From assembly GCF_021991835.1 (NCBI RefSeq), contig NZ_JAHDAU010000001.1, positions 248,001 through 312,000 of the forward strand: a stretch of 64,000 bases of DNA, read 5' to 3'. The notes under the pieces were generated by a model. The model was not told the DNA's origin, did no database searches, and worked only from the letters and a program-made list of their open reading frames with translations. Position numbers and translations under genes: made by a program. Below are positions 32,651 through 39,441 of this stretch, piece after piece (positions within the stretch are counted from its first letter, which is position 1; every line of letters begins with the position of its first letter). Source of the stretch: Polaribacter sargassicola (GTDB taxonomy: Bacteria; Bacteroidota; Bacteroidia; Flavobacteriales; Flavobacteriaceae).

Positions 32651-33097
32651 TTACTCTTTAATAATTTTTTGCCAATTTTTATCAGCCTTATTTTTTAATT
32701 CTTCTGCTCCTTCTTTCTCCCAAAGTTCTAACGTATTTATTCCCCAAGAATTGTAAAATAAATAAATTTTTCCGTCTCTTATTTCAAATGTTTTAGGGTC
32801 TATAGATACTTTGTCTCCTTTTGCGCCTATTGCATATGCACAATAACCACCATAAGCAGGTATATATTTTTCTGGTGATTTTTTAAAAATCTCTAAATTT
32901 TCTTTAGATACAAATTTGTATTTTACACCATCATGCGCTGTTGTAAATTTTTTATCTCCTTTAACAGCTTTGTTTTTAAAATACATAACTACATCGTAGC
33001 CTTCTGCAACATAGCCTTTTTGAATATTATAACTGTTTTTTTGAGAAAATAAAGATGTTGATACTACTAAAAATAGAATTGTTAAATAAGGTTTCAT
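32651..33097 (-). CDS. secreted YHS-domain protein
   Basis: 148 residues with a signal peptide (about 1-18, ending SLFSQ). The YHS-type core covers about 30-90: VAEGYDVVMYFKNKAVKGD, then FVSKENLEIFKKSPEKYIPA and YGGYCAYA, a single conserved Cys. YHS domains bind metals, often copper or heavy metals, in other proteins; here the role is unknown. It probably acts in the periplasm. It follows the LuxE-like gene on the same strand after 42 bases. Confidence 0.8.
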   Translation of the reverse strand: MKPYLTILFLVVSTSLFSQKNSYNIQKGYVAEGYDVVMYFKNKAVKGDKKFTTAHDGVKYKFVSKENLEIFKKSPEKYIPAYGGYCAYAIGAKGDKVSIDPKTFEIRDGKIYLFYNSWGINTLELWEKEGAEELKNKADKNWQKIIKE

Positions 33098-33139
33098 AAA
33101 TTTATATTTTTACAAATAGTCGTAAAAATTATCTTTAAA

Positions 33140-34114
33140 TTACAAAACCATTAAATTACAACCTCTAATATCAGAATTATCAAAACGTCCAATAATTTCA
33201 AACGTATCATTCTGGTATACTTTTCCTAAATCTTGTGTGGCAATAAAAGAACAAGAATTATAGTTTGCTAAATCAATAACATTAATTCCACCTGTTTTTC
33301 CGGTCTGTTGTATGGTTAAAGCATCTTCTGTATCTCTGGTAAGAATTTTCATCCAAGGTGGCGTTTTAAAAATACCATTTCCTTTAGAATATCCTTGGCT
33401 TAACAACTCTGTCATTCCGTATTCTGAGTGAATTCTATCAACTCCAAATCCATCTTGTAAAAGTTCGTGTAATTCTTCTCTAACCAATTCTTTTCTTCTA
33501 CCTTTCATTCCACCAGTTTCCATAATTATGGTGTTTTTTAGGTGAAATTTTTGGCTTTCAACCAAATCTAACAAAGCAAAAGAAACTCCTATTAATAAAA
33601 CTTTTTGTCCTTTTTTATCTAATTCTGATAATTTTACGGCTAATTCATCAATATTATTTAAATAAAAGCCGCTTTGCTCATTCTTCGATTTTTTTATTAA
33701 ATCATCTACCATAAAAACCAAAGAAGAACCTTTACGTTCTAAATAATTAGGCAACAAAGCCAACACAACATAATCTTCTATATCTCCATAAAAGTGAGCA
33801 AATCCTTTTAAATAGCTTTCTTTATAAAGATTAATATCCGTTACATAATGTTTACTTGTAACACTACCCGTTGTACCAGAACTTGTAAAAATTTCTTGCT
33901 CTTTTTCTAATGATGAAATTACTTTTCTGCTCTTAAAGAATTGAATAGGTAAAAACGGAATTTCATTAACCTTAGTAACATCTGAAGGATGAATATATAG
34001 TAGATCACAAAAAGATCTATACACCTTATTATTATTAAACTGATGTTTAAAAATGGCTAAAGCAACTTGCTTAAAATCTTCTTGTGTCTGTATGTTAAAA
34101 ATATCTTCTTGCAT
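33140..34114 (-). CDS. LuxE-like acyl-protein synthetase / acyl transferase
   Basis: 324 residues. The nucleotide-binding motif of the adenylate-forming class is visible as IFTSSGTTGSVTSKHYV, and LFVMDDL-like VFMVDDLIKK, METGGMKGRRKELVREEL and SEYGMTELLSQGYS match the LuxE family (PF04443), which activates fatty acids as acyl-AMP. In Bacteroidota such stand-alone proteins have no bioluminescence genes around them. The substrate is unknown. Confidence 0.82.
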   Translation of the reverse strand: MQEDIFNIQTQEDFKQVALAIFKHQFNNNKVYRSFCDLLYIHPSDVTKVNEIPFLPIQFFKSRKVISSLEKEQEIFTSSGTTGSVTSKHYVTDINLYKESYLKGFAHFYGDIEDYVVLALLPNYLERKGSSLVFMVDDLIKKSKNEQSGFYLNNIDELAVKLSELDKKGQKVLLIGVSFALLDLVESQKFHLKNTIIMETGGMKGRRKELVREELHELLQDGFGVDRIHSEYGMTELLSQGYSKGNGIFKTPPWMKILTRDTEDALTIQQTGKTGGINVIDLANYNSCSFIATQDLGKVYQNDTFEIIGRFDNSDIRGCNLMVL

Positions 34115-34123
34115 ATACTTTTA

Positions 34124-34131
34124 CAAAAATA
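34124..34131 (-). promoter_or_regulatory. -7 box for the LuxE-like gene
   Basis: The minus strand reads TATTTTTG, 9 bases before the ATG at 34114. Confidence 0.45.
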
Positions 34132-34209
34132 GTATTATTACACGCAACCTTTTAATTCTTTTTACATCTTTTAAATATAAAAGTTAACCTAAAACTATTA
34201 TTTAAAAAT

Positions 34210-34902
34210 ATGAACTTTAAAAATAGCATACTTATTCTTTTTACGCTGTTGTTTTTTTCTTGTGAAGAAAACCAAATTACCTTAGATGCAGATAATTTAT
34301 TACTTGGTAATTGGGTAGAACCTGTTTACAACGGAGAAACGACAACTTATAAAAGAGGAGAATCTTTACCTAACAAAGGTTATGGAATTTCTTTTAACCA
34401 ACAAAATATTTATACAGAACGCACATCTGGTTGGTGTGGCACGCCACCACTTTCTTACTTTAATGTAGAAGGTACTTTTGAGTTAAAGAATCAAATTATT
34501 AATATTTCTAAACAAAGTTTTCCTACAGATTATGCTTTAAAAATAGTTTCGTTAACAGAAACTGAATTGGTCGTTAAAAAAGAGCTTACAGAGCAAGAAA
34601 TAGATCATAAAAATTTAATAGACCTATTTACAGAAATAGAAGAACTAGCATATAGCATTTCTTGTACAGATATTAACAATTGGTCTTTTACCGCTTATGG
34701 AGCAAAAGCTTGTGGTGGTCCGCAAGGATATATACCTTATTCTAATCAAATAGATATTGATGCTTTTTTAGAAAAAATTAAAATATATACGCAAGCAGAA
34801 AAAGATTATAATGAAAAACACGGAATAATTTCTGACTGTGCTTTAGCTGCTACTCCTGTTTCTATAGAATGCCAAAATGGATATCCAATACTTAAATACT
34901 AA
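34210..34902 (+). CDS. lipoprotein of unknown function, possibly lipocalin-like
   Basis: 230 residues. A lipoprotein signal is clear: ILILFTLLFFSC with Cys at about 18. The mature part contains LLGNWVEPVYNGE, a start often seen in lipocalin-like beta-barrel domains, then a Cys pair region GWCGTPPLSYFNVEGTF and late Cys (SCTDINNW, KACGGPQGY, DCALAA, ECQNG). The many cysteines suggest disulfides in the periplasm or on the surface. It leads a unit with a second lipoprotein, an ECF sigma factor and its membrane partner. I do not recognise the family. Confidence 0.7.
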   Translation: MNFKNSILILFTLLFFSCEENQITLDADNLLLGNWVEPVYNGETTTYKRGESLPNKGYGISFNQQNIYTERTSGWCGTPPLSYFNVEGTFELKNQIINISKQSFPTDYALKIVSLTETELVVKKELTEQEIDHKNLIDLFTEIEELAYSISCTDINNWSFTAYGAKACGGPQGYIPYSNQIDIDAFLEKIKIYTQAEKDYNEKHGIISDCALAATPVSIECQNGYPILKY

Positions 34903-34921
34903 TTTATAAATACACACTTTA

Positions 34922-35326
34922 ATGAAAAAACTTACATTACTTTTATTTAGTTTAATTGTTTTTACATCTTGCCTAGATGATTCTTATACTCCTAATTACA
35001 CGTATGAGTATTTACCAATAGATGAAGCAATAACTCCAGATAGTTTAACATTTGGTGAAGTTGATACCATACACATAAAATATTCGCTGCCAAATTATTG
35101 CTATTCTTTTGATAGAATTTATTACGAAACACAAGATACTACTAGAATTGTAGCTGTTACAGCTTTAGTAAATTTAGATGATGATTGTGCTGAACAAATT
35201 ATACAAGAAGAATACGACATACCAATTATGGCATCACAAAAAGAAGATTATATCTTTAAATTTTTTAAAGGAGTTGATAGTGATGGAGAAAATATTTTTG
35301 ATGAAATAATAGTTCCTGTAAATTAG
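34922..35326 (+). CDS. small lipoprotein of unknown function upstream of ECF sigma factor
   Basis: 134 residues. Lipobox FTSCLDD with Cys at about 17. The mature part is acidic and beta-rich, with Cys in LPNYCYSFD and DDDCAEQ. Its TAG stop overlaps the proposed ATT start of the sigma gene (AATTAG), which suggests translational coupling. A surface or periplasmic ligand/sensor role in the sigma circuit is possible but is inference. No known domain is recognised. Confidence 0.68.
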   Translation: MKKLTLLLFSLIVFTSCLDDSYTPNYTYEYLPIDEAITPDSLTFGEVDTIHIKYSLPNYCYSFDRIYYETQDTTRIVAVTALVNLDDDCAEQIIQEEYDIPIMASQKEDYIFKFFKGVDSDGENIFDEIIVPVN

Positions 35327-35873
35327 CCTCATCAAACTAGAGAAACTCATACAAGAATGCTGCAAACAAAAAATTACAGCGCAAGCAGAAGTTTATCAGA
35401 TTTTTTCTGATAAGCTTTTTGCTGTATGTTTAAAATACTCTCGTAATTATCAAGATGCAGAAGACACTTTACAAGACAGTTTTATTACAATATTTGATAA
35501 AATTAATCAATATAAAAACAAAGGTTCTTTTGAAGGATGGTTAAAAAGAATTACCATAAATACAGCACTGCAAAAGTATAGAGAAAAATCTCCTTTACAA
35601 ATTGTAAAAGAATATGATGATGAACAAGAAGAAACAGATTTAGATCTAGAAAATACTACTGTAAATGTAGATGTTTTATTAAAATTTATTCAAGAATTAC
35701 CAGATAGATATAGGCTGGTTTTCAATTTATATGTTTTAGATAATTTTTCGCATAAAGAGATTGCTAAAATGTTAGATATTTCTGAAGGAACTTCTAAATC
35801 TAACTTATCTAGAGCAAGAAAAATTCTTAAAGATAAATTAGAAATTTATCAAAAAAAGGCACAAAAAGCTTAA
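35322..35873 (+). CDS. ECF-type RNA polymerase sigma factor with apparent ATT start codon
   Basis: 183 codons. The frame from 35322 reads ISLIKLEKLIQECCKQKITA, then the sigma-70 region 2 core (LKYSRNYQDAEDTLQDSF, GSFEGWLKRITINTAL) and region 4 (LPDRYRLVFNLYVL, HKEIAKMLDISEGTSKSNL). Flavobacterial relatives begin with a similar MSLIKLI-like segment. There is no ATG, GTG or TTG in this frame before the conserved core, and an in-frame TAA lies just upstream of the ATT. The ATT (35322-35324) overlaps the TAG of the lipoprotein gene. ATC or another rare start, or a sequencing error, are alternatives. The next gene follows after 3 bases. Confidence 0.85.
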   Translation: MSLIKLEKLIQECCKQKITAQAEVYQIFSDKLFAVCLKYSRNYQDAEDTLQDSFITIFDKINQYKNKGSFEGWLKRITINTALQKYREKSPLQIVKEYDDEQEETDLDLENTTVNVDVLLKFIQELPDRYRLVFNLYVLDNFSHKEIAKMLDISEGTSKSNLSRARKILKDKLEIYQKKAQKA

Positions 35874-35876
35874 TTA

Positions 35877-37235
35877 ATGAGTAATAAGAATATAGATAAA
35901 TTGTTTAAAGACCAACTTAAAGATTTGGAGGTAACTCCAAATAAAAAAGTATGGAATAACATAGAGTCTAAACTTAAAAAGAAAAAACGTAAAGTAATTC
36001 CTTTTTGGTGGTTTACAACTGCAGGTGTTGCCGCATTACTAATTTTAGGATTATTTTTATACCCTTTTTCTACTAATGATGATTTTATTAAAAACGATTC
36101 TAATATCATAATTACAAACAGTAATACTCCGCTTAAAAAAACAGAAAGTATAGATTCTTTAATTCTGCCAGAAAAAATTGAAGAAAACATACGTATTGTT
36201 GATAATAACACCAAACAAAAAACAGATAAAGACAAAAAATCTACTACAAAAAACTCAATTAAAGAGGAGAAGATTGTTAGCTCAAAAAACGCTATGAAAA
36301 AGATATTATTAGCTAATAATTCTGATGAAAAAAATAAAAAAGTTGAAGAAAACAAAACTCAAAAACACGCTAATAAAAAAAGAGATACTTTAATAAATAA
36401 GAACAAAGAACAACAAAAAAATACTACTAAAACAAACAAGAATACATCTATTAAAAAGATAGATTTTAATAATTTTATAAAGCAGAAAGACAGTGTTTAT
36501 ATTGCAAAATCTTCTAAAAAAAATTGGTCTATTTCACCTGTTTTTGCAGTTTTAAATTCTAATTCTTTTTCAAATTCTTCTCCAATAGATCAAAATTTAT
36601 CCAACACAACTCAAGGAAAAAATTCTATCTCTTATGGTTTACAAGTAGGTTATCAAATAAATAAAAAATGGAGCATTCAATCTGGTATATTTTTGCAAGA
36701 AACTAATTACACTAATAAACAAATTACTGTATCGCCTTCTATTGCAAGAAACTCTACAGCTTCTGTTACTTTTAATACTGGTAGTTCTTTTAACTTTACT
36801 GCTAATACTAACGAAATTTCTGATTTTGAAAACTTTGATGAATTTAATTCAATAATGACTAGCACATCAGATTTAAACGGTAATTTAAATCAGAATTATG
36901 GTTATATAGAAATCCCTATAGAGGTTAAATACAATCTTGTAGCTACTAATAAATTTAACACCGAATTAGTTGCTGGTTTTAGCTCTTTATTTTTACAAAA
37001 AAACAAAATAAACTTTAGTACTCAACTACTCTTAAAATCTGGAGAAGCTACCAATTTAAACGACATCAATTTTAGTGGAAATTTTGGTTTTGATTTTAAT
37101 TACTTTTTAAACAACAGTTGGTCATTTAATTTAAACCCTATGATTAAAGCGCAACTAAACACTTTTAGTAAAAACTCTAACGGTTTTGCGCCTTATAATT
37201 TAGGTCTGTTTTCTGGGATAAAATATAACTTCTGA
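35877..37235 (+). CDS. anti-sigma-like head with membrane helix and outer-membrane beta-barrel-like C-terminus
   Basis: 452 residues. Residues 1-40 are cytoplasmic and charged (LFKDQLKDLEVTPNKKVWNN), like the short sigma-binding heads found next to Bacteroidota ECF sigma factors. One membrane helix at about 44-63 (FWWFTTAGVAALLILGLFLY). Residues 64-205 are a Lys/Asn/Thr-rich linker. Residues 210-452 look like an outer-membrane barrel: SYGLQVGYQINKKWSIQSGI, alternating aromatic strands, and a terminal Phe (LGLFSGIKYNF). This predicts one protein touching both membranes. It starts 3 bases after the sigma gene, so it is probably its regulator. Confidence 0.72.
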   Translation: MSNKNIDKLFKDQLKDLEVTPNKKVWNNIESKLKKKKRKVIPFWWFTTAGVAALLILGLFLYPFSTNDDFIKNDSNIIITNSNTPLKKTESIDSLILPEKIEENIRIVDNNTKQKTDKDKKSTTKNSIKEEKIVSSKNAMKKILLANNSDEKNKKVEENKTQKHANKKRDTLINKNKEQQKNTTKTNKNTSIKKIDFNNFIKQKDSVYIAKSSKKNWSISPVFAVLNSNSFSNSSPIDQNLSNTTQGKNSISYGLQVGYQINKKWSIQSGIFLQETNYTNKQITVSPSIARNSTASVTFNTGSSFNFTANTNEISDFENFDEFNSIMTSTSDLNGNLNQNYGYIEIPIEVKYNLVATNKFNTELVAGFSSLFLQKNKINFSTQLLLKSGEATNLNDINFSGNFGFDFNYFLNNSWSFNLNPMIKAQLNTFSKNSNGFAPYNLGLFSGIKYNF

Positions 37236-37327
37236 TATTTATATAAAAATTAACATCCTTTAAAAACATCTTTATTGAATAATTAATATTATTACCGATA
37301 ATGTGACTTTTGTAAAAATTAAGAGTC

Positions 37328-37335
37328 TAATTTTA
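37328..37335 (+). promoter_or_regulatory. possible -7 box of the first tandem paralogue
   Basis: CTAATTTTA contains TAATTTTA (7 of 8 to TAnnTTTG), 15 bases before the ATG. A similar CTAGTTTTA sits before the second copy. Confidence 0.3.
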
Positions 37336-37350
37336 TATAAAACATAATTA

Positions 37351-37704
37351 ATGAAATTAAAAAAGAATACATATAGAACTCTAAGTGGTACTAAAGAAAT
37401 TGTGGAAACCATTAAGAAAAAAAGTTCTCAATGGGTTATTTATGAAAATAATAAACCTGCTTTTTATGTAGATTTTTATGATTTAAAAACAGAATCTAAT
37501 CTAATAATGAATAACTTAGTTTTATGTTCTGAAAAATCTATACATGAAGTTTTAGAGCTAATTAATAAAAGAAACAATATTAACTTATCTGTGCCTAAAA
37601 TATCTCGTTTAGGTTTTAAAAAACAAATAAAATCTGAAGAAATAGAACTTTCTTTAGAACCAATTCCAGAAAAATGGTTGTCTTATTACATAGAAACTAT
37701 TTAA
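37351..37704 (+). CDS. unknown protein, tandem paralogue 1
   Basis: 117 residues, basic, no signal peptide or membrane helix, so probably cytoplasmic. Conserved features are SQWVIYENNKPAFYVDFYDL, a central TESNLIMNNLVLCSEKSIHE, and RLGFKKQIKSEEIELSL near the end. The gene 245 bases downstream encodes a close paralogue whose central 75 residues are almost identical, also at DNA level. I do not recognise the family. It lies downstream of the sigma/anti-sigma unit and could be one of its targets (inference). Confidence 0.7.
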   Translation: MKLKKNTYRTLSGTKEIVETIKKKSSQWVIYENNKPAFYVDFYDLKTESNLIMNNLVLCSEKSIHEVLELINKRNNINLSVPKISRLGFKKQIKSEEIELSLEPIPEKWLSYYIETI

Positions 37705-37880
37705 AAGCTTTTGTAACAACAATCTAAAATTGATTATAATTTGTTCTAAGCTACTTAAAATTATAATTTATATCATTAGCCAACTTAGCTAATTTCTCTT
37801 CCCTCAATATTTAAAAATTTACTATTAAAGATACCTACAAAGGTTTTACTTAGGTAAAACACAGTATTTGCTTGCAATAA

Positions 37881-37902
37881 AAATACCTATAAATAGGTAT
37901 TT
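37881..37902. repeat. perfect 9-bp palindrome upstream of the second tandem paralogue
   Basis: AAATACCTA/TAGGTATTT with a 4-base loop, 21 bases before the possible -7 box of the 37950 gene. No T run follows on the plus strand, so it is more like an operator than a terminator. Confidence 0.4.
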
Positions 37903-37922
37903 AAAAAATTATCCTGTTTTTC

Positions 37923-37930
37923 TAGTTTTA
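37923..37930 (+). promoter_or_regulatory. possible -7 box of the second tandem paralogue
   Basis: CTAGTTTTA contains TAGTTTTA (7 of 8 to TAnnTTTG), 19 bases before the ATG at 37950. Confidence 0.3.
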
Positions 37931-37949
37931 CATGCCAACTAACATTTAA

Positions 37950-38297
37950 ATGATATTAAAAAAAAAATTATACAGAACATTAAAAGGGCGCAAAGAAATT
38001 ATAGTACCATCAAAAAAAACATATTCTCAATGGGTTATTTATAAAGATAATGTGCCTAAATATTTTGTAGATTTTTATGATTTAAACACCGAATCTAATC
38101 TAATAATGAATAACTTAGTATTGTGTTCTGATAGATCTATACATGAAGTTTTAGAGCTTATCAATAAGAATAATAATATTAACTTGTCTGTGCCTAAAAT
38201 ATCTCGTTTAGGTTTTAAAAAACAAATAAAATCCGAAGAAATAGAACTTTCTCTAAGACCACTTCCAAAAAAGTGGTTAATTTACAGCTCTAAATAA
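37950..38297 (+). CDS. unknown protein, tandem paralogue 2
   Basis: 115 residues, the same layout as the 37351 gene: SQWVIYKDNVPKYFVDFYDL, TESNLIMNNLVLCSDRSIHE and RLGFKKQIKSEEIELSL. The centre is nearly identical while the first 26 and last 12 residues differ, which points to recent duplication with gene conversion or selection on the ends. It has its own promoter-like box and upstream palindrome and a strong terminator after it. No domain is recognised. Confidence 0.7.
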   Translation: MILKKKLYRTLKGRKEIIVPSKKTYSQWVIYKDNVPKYFVDFYDLNTESNLIMNNLVLCSDRSIHEVLELINKNNNINLSVPKISRLGFKKQIKSEEIELSLRPLPKKWLIYSSK

Positions 38298-38324
38298 CTT
38301 CTAAAAGATATCTATTTAAAAAAT

Positions 38325-38354
38325 AAAAAACCAACTCAAATGAGTTGGTTTTTT
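38325..38354. terminator. Rho-independent terminator after the tandem paralogues
   Basis: Fourteen-base arms AAAAAACCAACTCA/TGAGTTGGTTTTTT, very short loop, T runs on both strands. Confidence 0.88.
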
Positions 38355-38466
38355 TGTCACTTACAATACGTGTTGTTATTTAAAAAACTATTAATTTCGT
38401 TTTAAAATGAATTAAAACTCATTTTATCTGACCCCCTATTAATAAAACTCTCTTAATCTTAACATA

Positions 38467-39441
38467 ATGAAATCTTACTTAGCAAATATCATAATAAAAA
38501 CAACTCTTAAGTTTAAGGATAAAAAAAAGTATCCTAAAGGAAAACCATCAGAATATAAACTTGCCAAAAGGTATAAAGAAATTCTAATTAACTTTAAACG
38601 TAACTTTAAAAACCTTTTATTAATAATTGTTGGTATATTTTCTGCTTCTTTTGGTTTTAAAGGTTTTTTATTAACAAACGATTTTATAGATGGTGGTGCT
38701 ACAGGTATTTCTTTACTAATAGCTGCAATTACAGGAATTCCTCTTTATATTTTAATTATTTGCATCAACTTTCCTTTTGTAATTATGGGCTATAAAATTA
38801 TGGGAAAACAGTTTGCTATAAAAACGGCTTTAGCTATTGCTGGTTTAGCACTTTGTGTTGCAGTTGTACCTTTTCCTAACGTTACAAATGATGATTTATT
38901 AGTTGCAATTTTTGGAGGTTTTTTTCTTGGTGCAGGTATTGGCCTTTCTATTAGAGGTGGCGCTGTTATAGACGGTACAGAAGTTCTTGCCATTTATTTA
39001 AGTAGAAAATTTGGTACAACCATTGGTGATATTATTATACTAATTAATGTTATTATTTTTTCTGTTGCCGCTTATTTACTTTCTATTGAAATAGCATTAT
39101 ATTCTATGATAACTTATATGGCAGCCTCTAAAACATTAGATTTTATAATAGAAGGTATAGAAGAATATATTGGTGTAACTATTATTTCTTCTCAAAGTAC
39201 AAGAATAAAAGAAATGATTACTCATAAATTGGGGCGTGCTGTAACAATTTATAAAGGAAAAGGTGGTTTTGAGAAAGAAGGAGTTGCTAACGAAAAAGAA
39301 ATTATTTATACTGTAATAACTCGTTTAGAGGTTAATAAATTAAATACAGAAATTGAAAAAATTGAATCGAATGCTTTTATTATAATGAATAGTATAAAAG
39401 ATATAAAAGGAGGTATGATAAAGAAAAGACCACTACATTAA
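38467..39441 (+). CDS. YitT family membrane protein (DUF161 plus DUF2179)
   Basis: 324 residues. About five to six helices between residues 50 and 235, with the family motif GFLLTNDFIDGGATGISLL and IRGGAVIDGTEVLAIYL. A cytosolic DUF2179 domain covers about 240-320 (GRAVTIYKGKGGFEKEG, then a beta-alpha end). The family is widespread and its substrate is unknown. It stands alone on the plus strand between two terminators. Confidence 0.85.
   Translation: MKSYLANIIIKTTLKFKDKKKYPKGKPSEYKLAKRYKEILINFKRNFKNLLLIIVGIFSASFGFKGFLLTNDFIDGGATGISLLIAAITGIPLYILIICINFPFVIMGYKIMGKQFAIKTALAIAGLALCVAVVPFPNVTNDDLLVAIFGGFFLGAGIGLSIRGGAVIDGTEVLAIYLSRKFGTTIGDIIILINVIIFSVAAYLLSIEIALYSMITYMAASKTLDFIIEGIEEYIGVTIISSQSTRIKEMITHKLGRAVTIYKGKGGFEKEGVANEKEIIYTVITRLEVNKLNTEIEKIESNAFIIMNSIKDIKGGMIKKRPLH

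Follow-up and report, generated by a model that had tools for sequence, protein, structure and literature searches.

An ECF sigma factor gene that appears to start with AUC, AUU or AUA across a clade of Polaribacter and Tenacibaculum species

Where does translation begin in a gene whose reading frame offers no ATG, GTG or TTG near its 5′ end? The question is raised by a sigma factor gene in a 64,000-nucleotide stretch of the Polaribacter sargassicola genome (contig NZ_JAHDAU010000001.1; hereafter the window). The frame, 35322–35873 on the forward strand, begins after a TAA at 35319–35321 and runs for 183 codons to the TAA at 35871–35873, and its earliest in-frame ATG, GTG or TTG is codon 150 (ATG at 35769). 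An earlier description made from the letters alone (the sequence-only reading) had called the frame intact and lacking any canonical start. Both points hold, and the start appears instead to be an AUH codon, where AUH (ATH in DNA) denotes AUC, AUU or AUA. The features of the locus are collected in Table 1.

Table 1. Features of the sigma factor locus, in window coordinates
Feature	Coordinates	Strand	Remarks
ECF sigma factor gene	35331..35873	+	180 codons with the ATC as inferred start; ends at TAA 35871–35873; Pfam domains, SigW match, orthologue alignment
Inferred start codon ATC (AUC)	35331–35333	+	codon 4 of the frame; ATH in 87 of 87 clade orthologues
ATT of the sequence-only reading	35322–35324	+	reflects the end of the lipoprotein gene that it overlaps; no conserved start
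CTC ATA element	35346..35351	+	+16 to +21 from the start; kept at the nucleotide level
Putative lipoprotein gene	34922..35326	+	stop TAG, 4 nt before the ATC start; no Pfam or NCBIfam match
Downstream gene, 452 aa	35877..37235	+	ATG 3 nt past the sigma stop; one hydrophobic segment near the N terminus

The 180-residue product scored above the Pfam cut-off for both Sigma70_r2 and Sigma70_r4_2, and these sigma regions 2 and 4, together with the length of the protein, are those of an ECF sigma factor (sigma-70 family group 4), a sigma factor of the stress type. Its best solved relative was SigW, and the sequence was aligned with 22 orthologues. In NCBIfam, only the superfamily model TIGR02937 scored above its cut-off among the best 25 of 95 families, with no equivalog among them doing so. 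The source genome has no second close copy of the gene, the next ECF sigma being 39% identical. Of seven further ECF sigma loci examined in the same genome, four (L002, L004, L006 and L007) apparently use TTG or GTG in place of ATG, and such weak starts may be widespread in the ECF sigma protein family.

Start codons of the orthologues

We searched 166 genomes of the window's genus, which includes species named Polaribacter and Tenacibaculum, with an E-value cut-off of 1e-46, which more distant copies in 78 of these genomes would escape. The other 88 have a close homologue, and all 88 loci were examined. At the start position, 86 carry ATC, ATT or ATA, and 85 of these 86 have no in-frame ATG, GTG or TTG upstream. 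The two exceptions are L195, where a TTG lies two codons downstream, and L196, with an ATG 17 codons upstream and CTC replaced by TTA; to judge by these two, the weak codon can be dispensed with. A single genome from outside the genus (G037, locus L024) also has ATH, giving a total of 87 ATH orthologues. This number counts one interrupted copy (L016, in genome G028), where CTC ATA is followed at once by an in-frame stop, and where the 3′ frame is altered and continues into the next gene; this copy is probably dead or decaying.

The searches of the family and the order covered samples of 395 and 246 genomes, and part of their matches was examined. The final set numbered 291 loci with a homologue, made up of 26 duplicates (including the ATH loci L292–L296) and 265 distinct loci. 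Excluding 17 distinct loci with less than 53% identity gave 248 orthologues; for two of them, L260 and L299, the start was placed by gap-free extrapolation. Among the excluded loci were the second paralogues of six genus members (L210–L215; 49–51% identical), all of which have TTG at the start position and lack CTC ATA.

The 248 start codons were TTG (102), GTG (42), ATG (15), ATC (59), ATT (24), ATA (4) and others (2). All but two are therefore no more than one base from AUG, with AUG itself found only 15 times. The position of window codon 4 holds ATH in all 87 clade orthologues and TTG, GTG or ATG (NTG) in all 159 outside orthologues. Among the last 57 distinct loci from the family and order there were 45 TTG, 8 GTG and 4 ATG codons, and no ATH. 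The comparison of orthologous start codons that the sequence-only reading had proposed thus bore out one half of its claim, in that no canonical codon stands at the start position in the clade. The other half fell, since the shared position is 35331 and not the ATT at 35322.

This distribution also bears on whether a canonical start has simply been lost or misread, through a sequencing error or because the gene is a pseudogene. The window does lack a canonical start and one copy is interrupted. However, 86 of the 88 genus genomes share this state, and many of these genomes are assembled into a single contig; the homologues are 54–81% identical with open frames of 180–201 codons, L016 excepted. 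Error or decay is excluded by this sharing among genus genomes, and we give the idea practically no weight.

A quick tree was built from 194 orthologues, with the start region and L016 left out. The ATH orthologues fell into one clade of 88 (SH-aLRT 95), 86 of which are ATH; the division between ATH and the rest needs three changes on the tree. Within the clade, the third base of the start codon has changed at least 14 times among A, C and T, and ATG was found at the start position in no member, although it is always one substitution away from an ATH start. This pattern suggests that the AUH codon is retained by selection so that initiation stays rare. Elsewhere in the tree, 11 ATG-started orthologues (L061, L092, L101, L105, L112, L117, L121, L136, L137, L138 and L219) group with three TTG-started ones near the base.

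Position of the start codon

We noted that the start position carries a codon bias of its own. In the 87 ATH orthologues it is ATC in 59, compared with 7.5% ATC among the other isoleucine codons of the gene in the same sequences. The codons that follow it appear to be translated, because the third codon encodes leucine or isoleucine in 85 of the 87 with a mixture of synonymous codons. The codons 5′ of the position are variable, some being stops. In 77 of the 87, the sigma frame is closed by a stop no more than eight codons upstream; this stop lies 0–1 codon before the start position in three orthologues and 2–3 codons before it in 54. An in-frame ATG, GTG or TTG upstream of the position is absent from 85 of the 87. 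The exceptions are L024, with an ATG 12 codons upstream, and L083, and these canonical codons might be used as starts.

An isoleucine residue that was required by the protein would likewise never be ATG, so the pattern at the third base is by itself no proof of a start. It is the alignment with the NTG starts of the outside orthologues, together with the closed frame upstream, that leads to the reading of this position as the start codon. The gene combines the lack of a canonical start with a conserved AUH at a single position, as in other AUH-initiated genes, and translation most likely starts at the ATC.

The sequence-only reading had placed the start at the ATT at 35322, as the sole initiation point that fitted, and had proposed that ribosomes reach it by coupled re-initiation from the lipoprotein gene. 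The ATT does overlap the lipoprotein stop (TAG, 35324–35326) by one base, as had been noted, and ATT occurs at the same position in 53 of the 87 ATH orthologues. In the other 34 the codon is different, and in at least three it is a stop (TAA in two, TAG in one). Where the spacing to the upstream stop is 4 nt, as in the window, the position reads ATT in 37 orthologues and ACT in the remaining two of 39. These letters are dictated by the asparagine codon of the upstream gene, which ends Asn-stop in another frame. The ATT is also out of line with the NTG start of the relatives, whereas the conserved position is the ATC four bases past the lipoprotein stop. We therefore rejected the ATT as the start, and regard initiation there as very unlikely.

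Start hairpin and the CTC ATA element

A typical start outside the clade consists of TTG or GTG, then AGT, eight further bases and ACTCAT. The second and third bases of the start codon and the whole of the next codon can pair with ACTCA, making a hairpin of five pairs. By sequence complementarity, this hairpin is possible in 122 of the 159 NTG orthologues and in none of the 87 ATH orthologues. Two of the five pairs use the T and G that are present in any NTG start. As a control, the 3′ arm was slid by 1 to 3 bases, and all five pairs were then found in none of the 159 NTG orthologues. Eleven of the 15 ATG-started orthologues in the final set can make the complete hairpin. Synonymous constraint acts on the codon next to the start in orthologues from outside the clade (z 3.9) and is absent there in the ATH orthologues (z −0.4).

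Fold predictions gave a similar division. For the NTG orthologues, the mean pairing of the start codon was 0.794 in the native sequences and 0.619 in synonymous shuffles, the native value being higher in 76 of 102. For the ATH orthologues, the corresponding values were 0.376 and 0.52, the native value being higher in 27 of 86. The shuffles, and the counts of gaps and downstream genes given below, used 102 NTG orthologues rather than the final 159, and the ATH shuffles were made without L016. For comparison, mean pairing at the start codon of the downstream gene was 0.56 in the NTG and 0.59 in the ATH orthologues; pairing there is also high, so that the NTG value of 0.79 counts as elevated rather than extreme. 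Pairing values in the window were 0.05 to 0.23 for the three bases of the start codon. One lineage thus appears to have swapped a weak NTG codon within a hairpin for a very weak AUH codon in an open site.

The 3′ side of the hairpin overlaps the CTC ATA element, which is mostly retained in the NTG-started orthologues, where it can pair with the start. In both groups, no codon of the gene is under stronger synonymous constraint than CTC (35346–35348; z 8.9 and 8.1), against a background of 2.5% and 5.5% CTC among leucine codons in the two groups. The ATA after it is present in all 87 ATH orthologues, compared with 35% ATA among other isoleucine codons. In the ATH clade no pairing partner was found for the element: folding from −40 to +60 and from −120 to +120 gave no position with a mean above 0.11. 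A search of 33000–38500 found no known RNA family at the gathering threshold. The element is not a general start signal either, as CTCAT occurred at +10 to +30 in none of the window's 58 ATG-started open reading frames with a length of 120 aa or more.

Could the AUA of this element (35349–35351), six codons on from the AUC, be the main start or a second one, with CUC-AUA as its context? Its invariance in the clade and the CTC ahead of it, far above background, would agree with such a role, as would infC, which has an apparent UC-AUA start and reads GTC ATA GCA in 11 of 14 loci of the genus. Against it, the codons between the ATC and this ATA show conserved residues with mixed synonymous codons, and the ATC position has its own bias towards ATC. 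In addition, the sister group has an unambiguous NTG at the 35331 position yet keeps CTC ATA. We consider initiation at this AUA unlikely.

The retention of CTC ATA without a pairing partner in the ATH clade is not accounted for by a weak start at the AUC. The element may be a trans-acting site or a signal for initiation that lies downstream of the start; it may also be a pair of slowly read codons, or its AUA may be a second start. A broader proposal is that CUC-AUA and the weak codon together form a regulated non-Shine-Dalgarno initiation site, in which CUC-AUA marks the start or binds an RNA or protein switch. In most of the family it would shut the start by pairing, and in the window's clade it would act unpaired on the AUH codon, with IF3 or a trans factor setting the sigma level. 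We regard this proposal as possible but doubtful; if true, CUC-AUA would be a downstream element governing sigma synthesis.

Neighbouring genes and initiation at AUH codons

Upstream open reading frames were identified by length (at least 80 codons) and not by homology. In 56 of the 87 ATH orthologues their stop is no more than 10 nt from the start, most often at 4 nt, but this is so in only 2 of 102 NTG orthologues. In 57 of these 102 the stop is 11–30 nt away, and in the remainder it is further off or there is no such frame. The gaps include 1, 4, 5, 10, 22, 24, 25 and 26 nt, and the relation between the two frames also varies. Where every third orthologue was inspected, upstream frames with -PV- endings resembling that of the window's lipoprotein were found in both groups; several of the inspected ATH orthologues have an upstream frame of ∼230 aa that ends like the window gene at 34210–34902.

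The coupled re-initiation of the sequence-only reading is in keeping with the close upstream stops of the ATH orthologues. As the only route to initiation it was rejected, because the 31 of 87 that have no stop within 10 nt still use ATH; coupling is therefore not required for the ATH state, but it may help initiation. The close stop would also suit a frameshift or stop bypass that carried ribosomes from the upstream gene into the sigma frame and yielded a fusion. However, the variable spacing and frame relation, the stops just before the start position and the two of 87 ATH orthologues that lack an upstream frame of 80 codons all speak against a fusion. We rejected it as extremely unlikely.

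The frame that follows sigma, taken as the longest NTG frame near the sigma stop, starts with ATG in 84 of 87 ATH and 92 of 102 NTG orthologues. In the window its 452-aa product has no Pfam or NCBIfam match. Its place and its hydrophobic segment make it a putative anti-sigma factor or signalling membrane protein. Further on, two adjacent small genes (37351–37704 and 37950–38297; 117 and 115 aa) are closely similar, with near identity along much of their middle part, which resembles the outcome of gene conversion or of a recent duplication.

Few bacterial genes are known to start with an AUH codon; examples are given in PMC13009471. In E. coli, infC starts with AUU and IF3 autoregulates its own synthesis through this codon. 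Binns and Masters reportedly found in 2002 that the AUU start of E. coli pcnB limits its expression. The sigma gene resembles infC in that an AUH start has been kept in evolution, and infC of the same genus also lacks a canonical start. In 14 genus loci (among L234–L251; L239 in the window's genome), infC has I-A-I where the canonical start is expected, mostly as GTC ATA GCA AT- in place of NTG. ATA is the first codon in at least 13 of the 14, and 13 have no in-frame NTG upstream. It is very likely, given these infC genes, that AUH initiation operates in these cells. The difference is that infC encodes IF3 whereas the window gene encodes a sigma factor, so there is no direct feedback loop, and control of the sigma gene by IF3 is putative. 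Like pcnB, the sigma gene would use a weak start to limit the supply of a protein that regulates RNA metabolism or transcription; it differs in the protein encoded, in the retention of AUC, AUU or AUA by a whole genus and in belonging to a phylum that does not use Shine-Dalgarno sequences.

AUH starts are described as poorly read and disfavoured through IF3 (PMC8266586, PMC13009471). In S. aureus, AUU and AUA starts yielded ∼10% as much as AUG when the medium was poor, and ccpN reached up to 30% when it was rich; infC of this species starts with AUA (PMC13009471). According to the same paper, S. aureus ccpN (AUA; a transcription regulator) and cvfC1 (AUU) likewise have a conserved AUH, and their starts were shown by ribosome profiling and reporters. 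They also have an extended Shine-Dalgarno sequence, as is described for S. aureus AUH genes (PMC13009471). In the sigma clade a strong or extended Shine-Dalgarno sequence is not the rule, GGAG, GAGG or AGGA at −20 to −4 being found in only 2 of the 87 ATH orthologues. This is as expected, because the window's phylum is described as lacking Shine-Dalgarno sequences (PMC6847099). The nearest comparison is with the NTG-started orthologues of other Flavobacteriaceae, which share the gene, the start position and mostly CTC ATA, but use TTG, GTG or ATG and in most cases can form the start hairpin, which none of the 87 ATH orthologues can.

With a probability of roughly 0.78, we favour a functional ECF sigma factor that is started with fMet at the AUC, the AUH codon being kept so that initiation is rare. 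The fMet-tRNA would pair poorly with AUH, and IF3 would reject most such 30S complexes. Each mRNA would then give little sigma, while the next gene, with its ATG, would be made more efficiently, so that low-rate translation from the AUC would keep sigma in short supply compared with what the next gene encodes. For part of the clade, much of this initiation probably comes from ribosomes that have finished the lipoprotein gene, 4 nt before the start. In relatives from outside the clade, a TTG or GTG codon within the start hairpin seems to exert the same restraint, and the window's lineage would have given up this hairpin for the weaker codon.

As the sequence-only reading had foreseen, gene finders that require ATG, GTG or TTG would miss or truncate this gene. 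Annotation probably does so across Tenacibaculum and Polaribacter, because past the start position the first canonical codon lies at least 14 codons inside the gene in 85 of the 87 ATH orthologues and is absent in two. Among the open-licence papers listed, no title concerned this sigma gene, which is weak evidence that no such paper exists.

A whole lineage of marine bacteria, with mRNAs that lack Shine-Dalgarno sequences, thus seems to keep an AUH start in the gene for a sigma factor. In the relatives of this lineage a different device, a weak NTG codon with a hairpin, seems to hold the same gene back. The family would offer a natural experiment in limiting sigma dosage at translation initiation, and in how ribosomes choose a start codon without a Shine-Dalgarno sequence.
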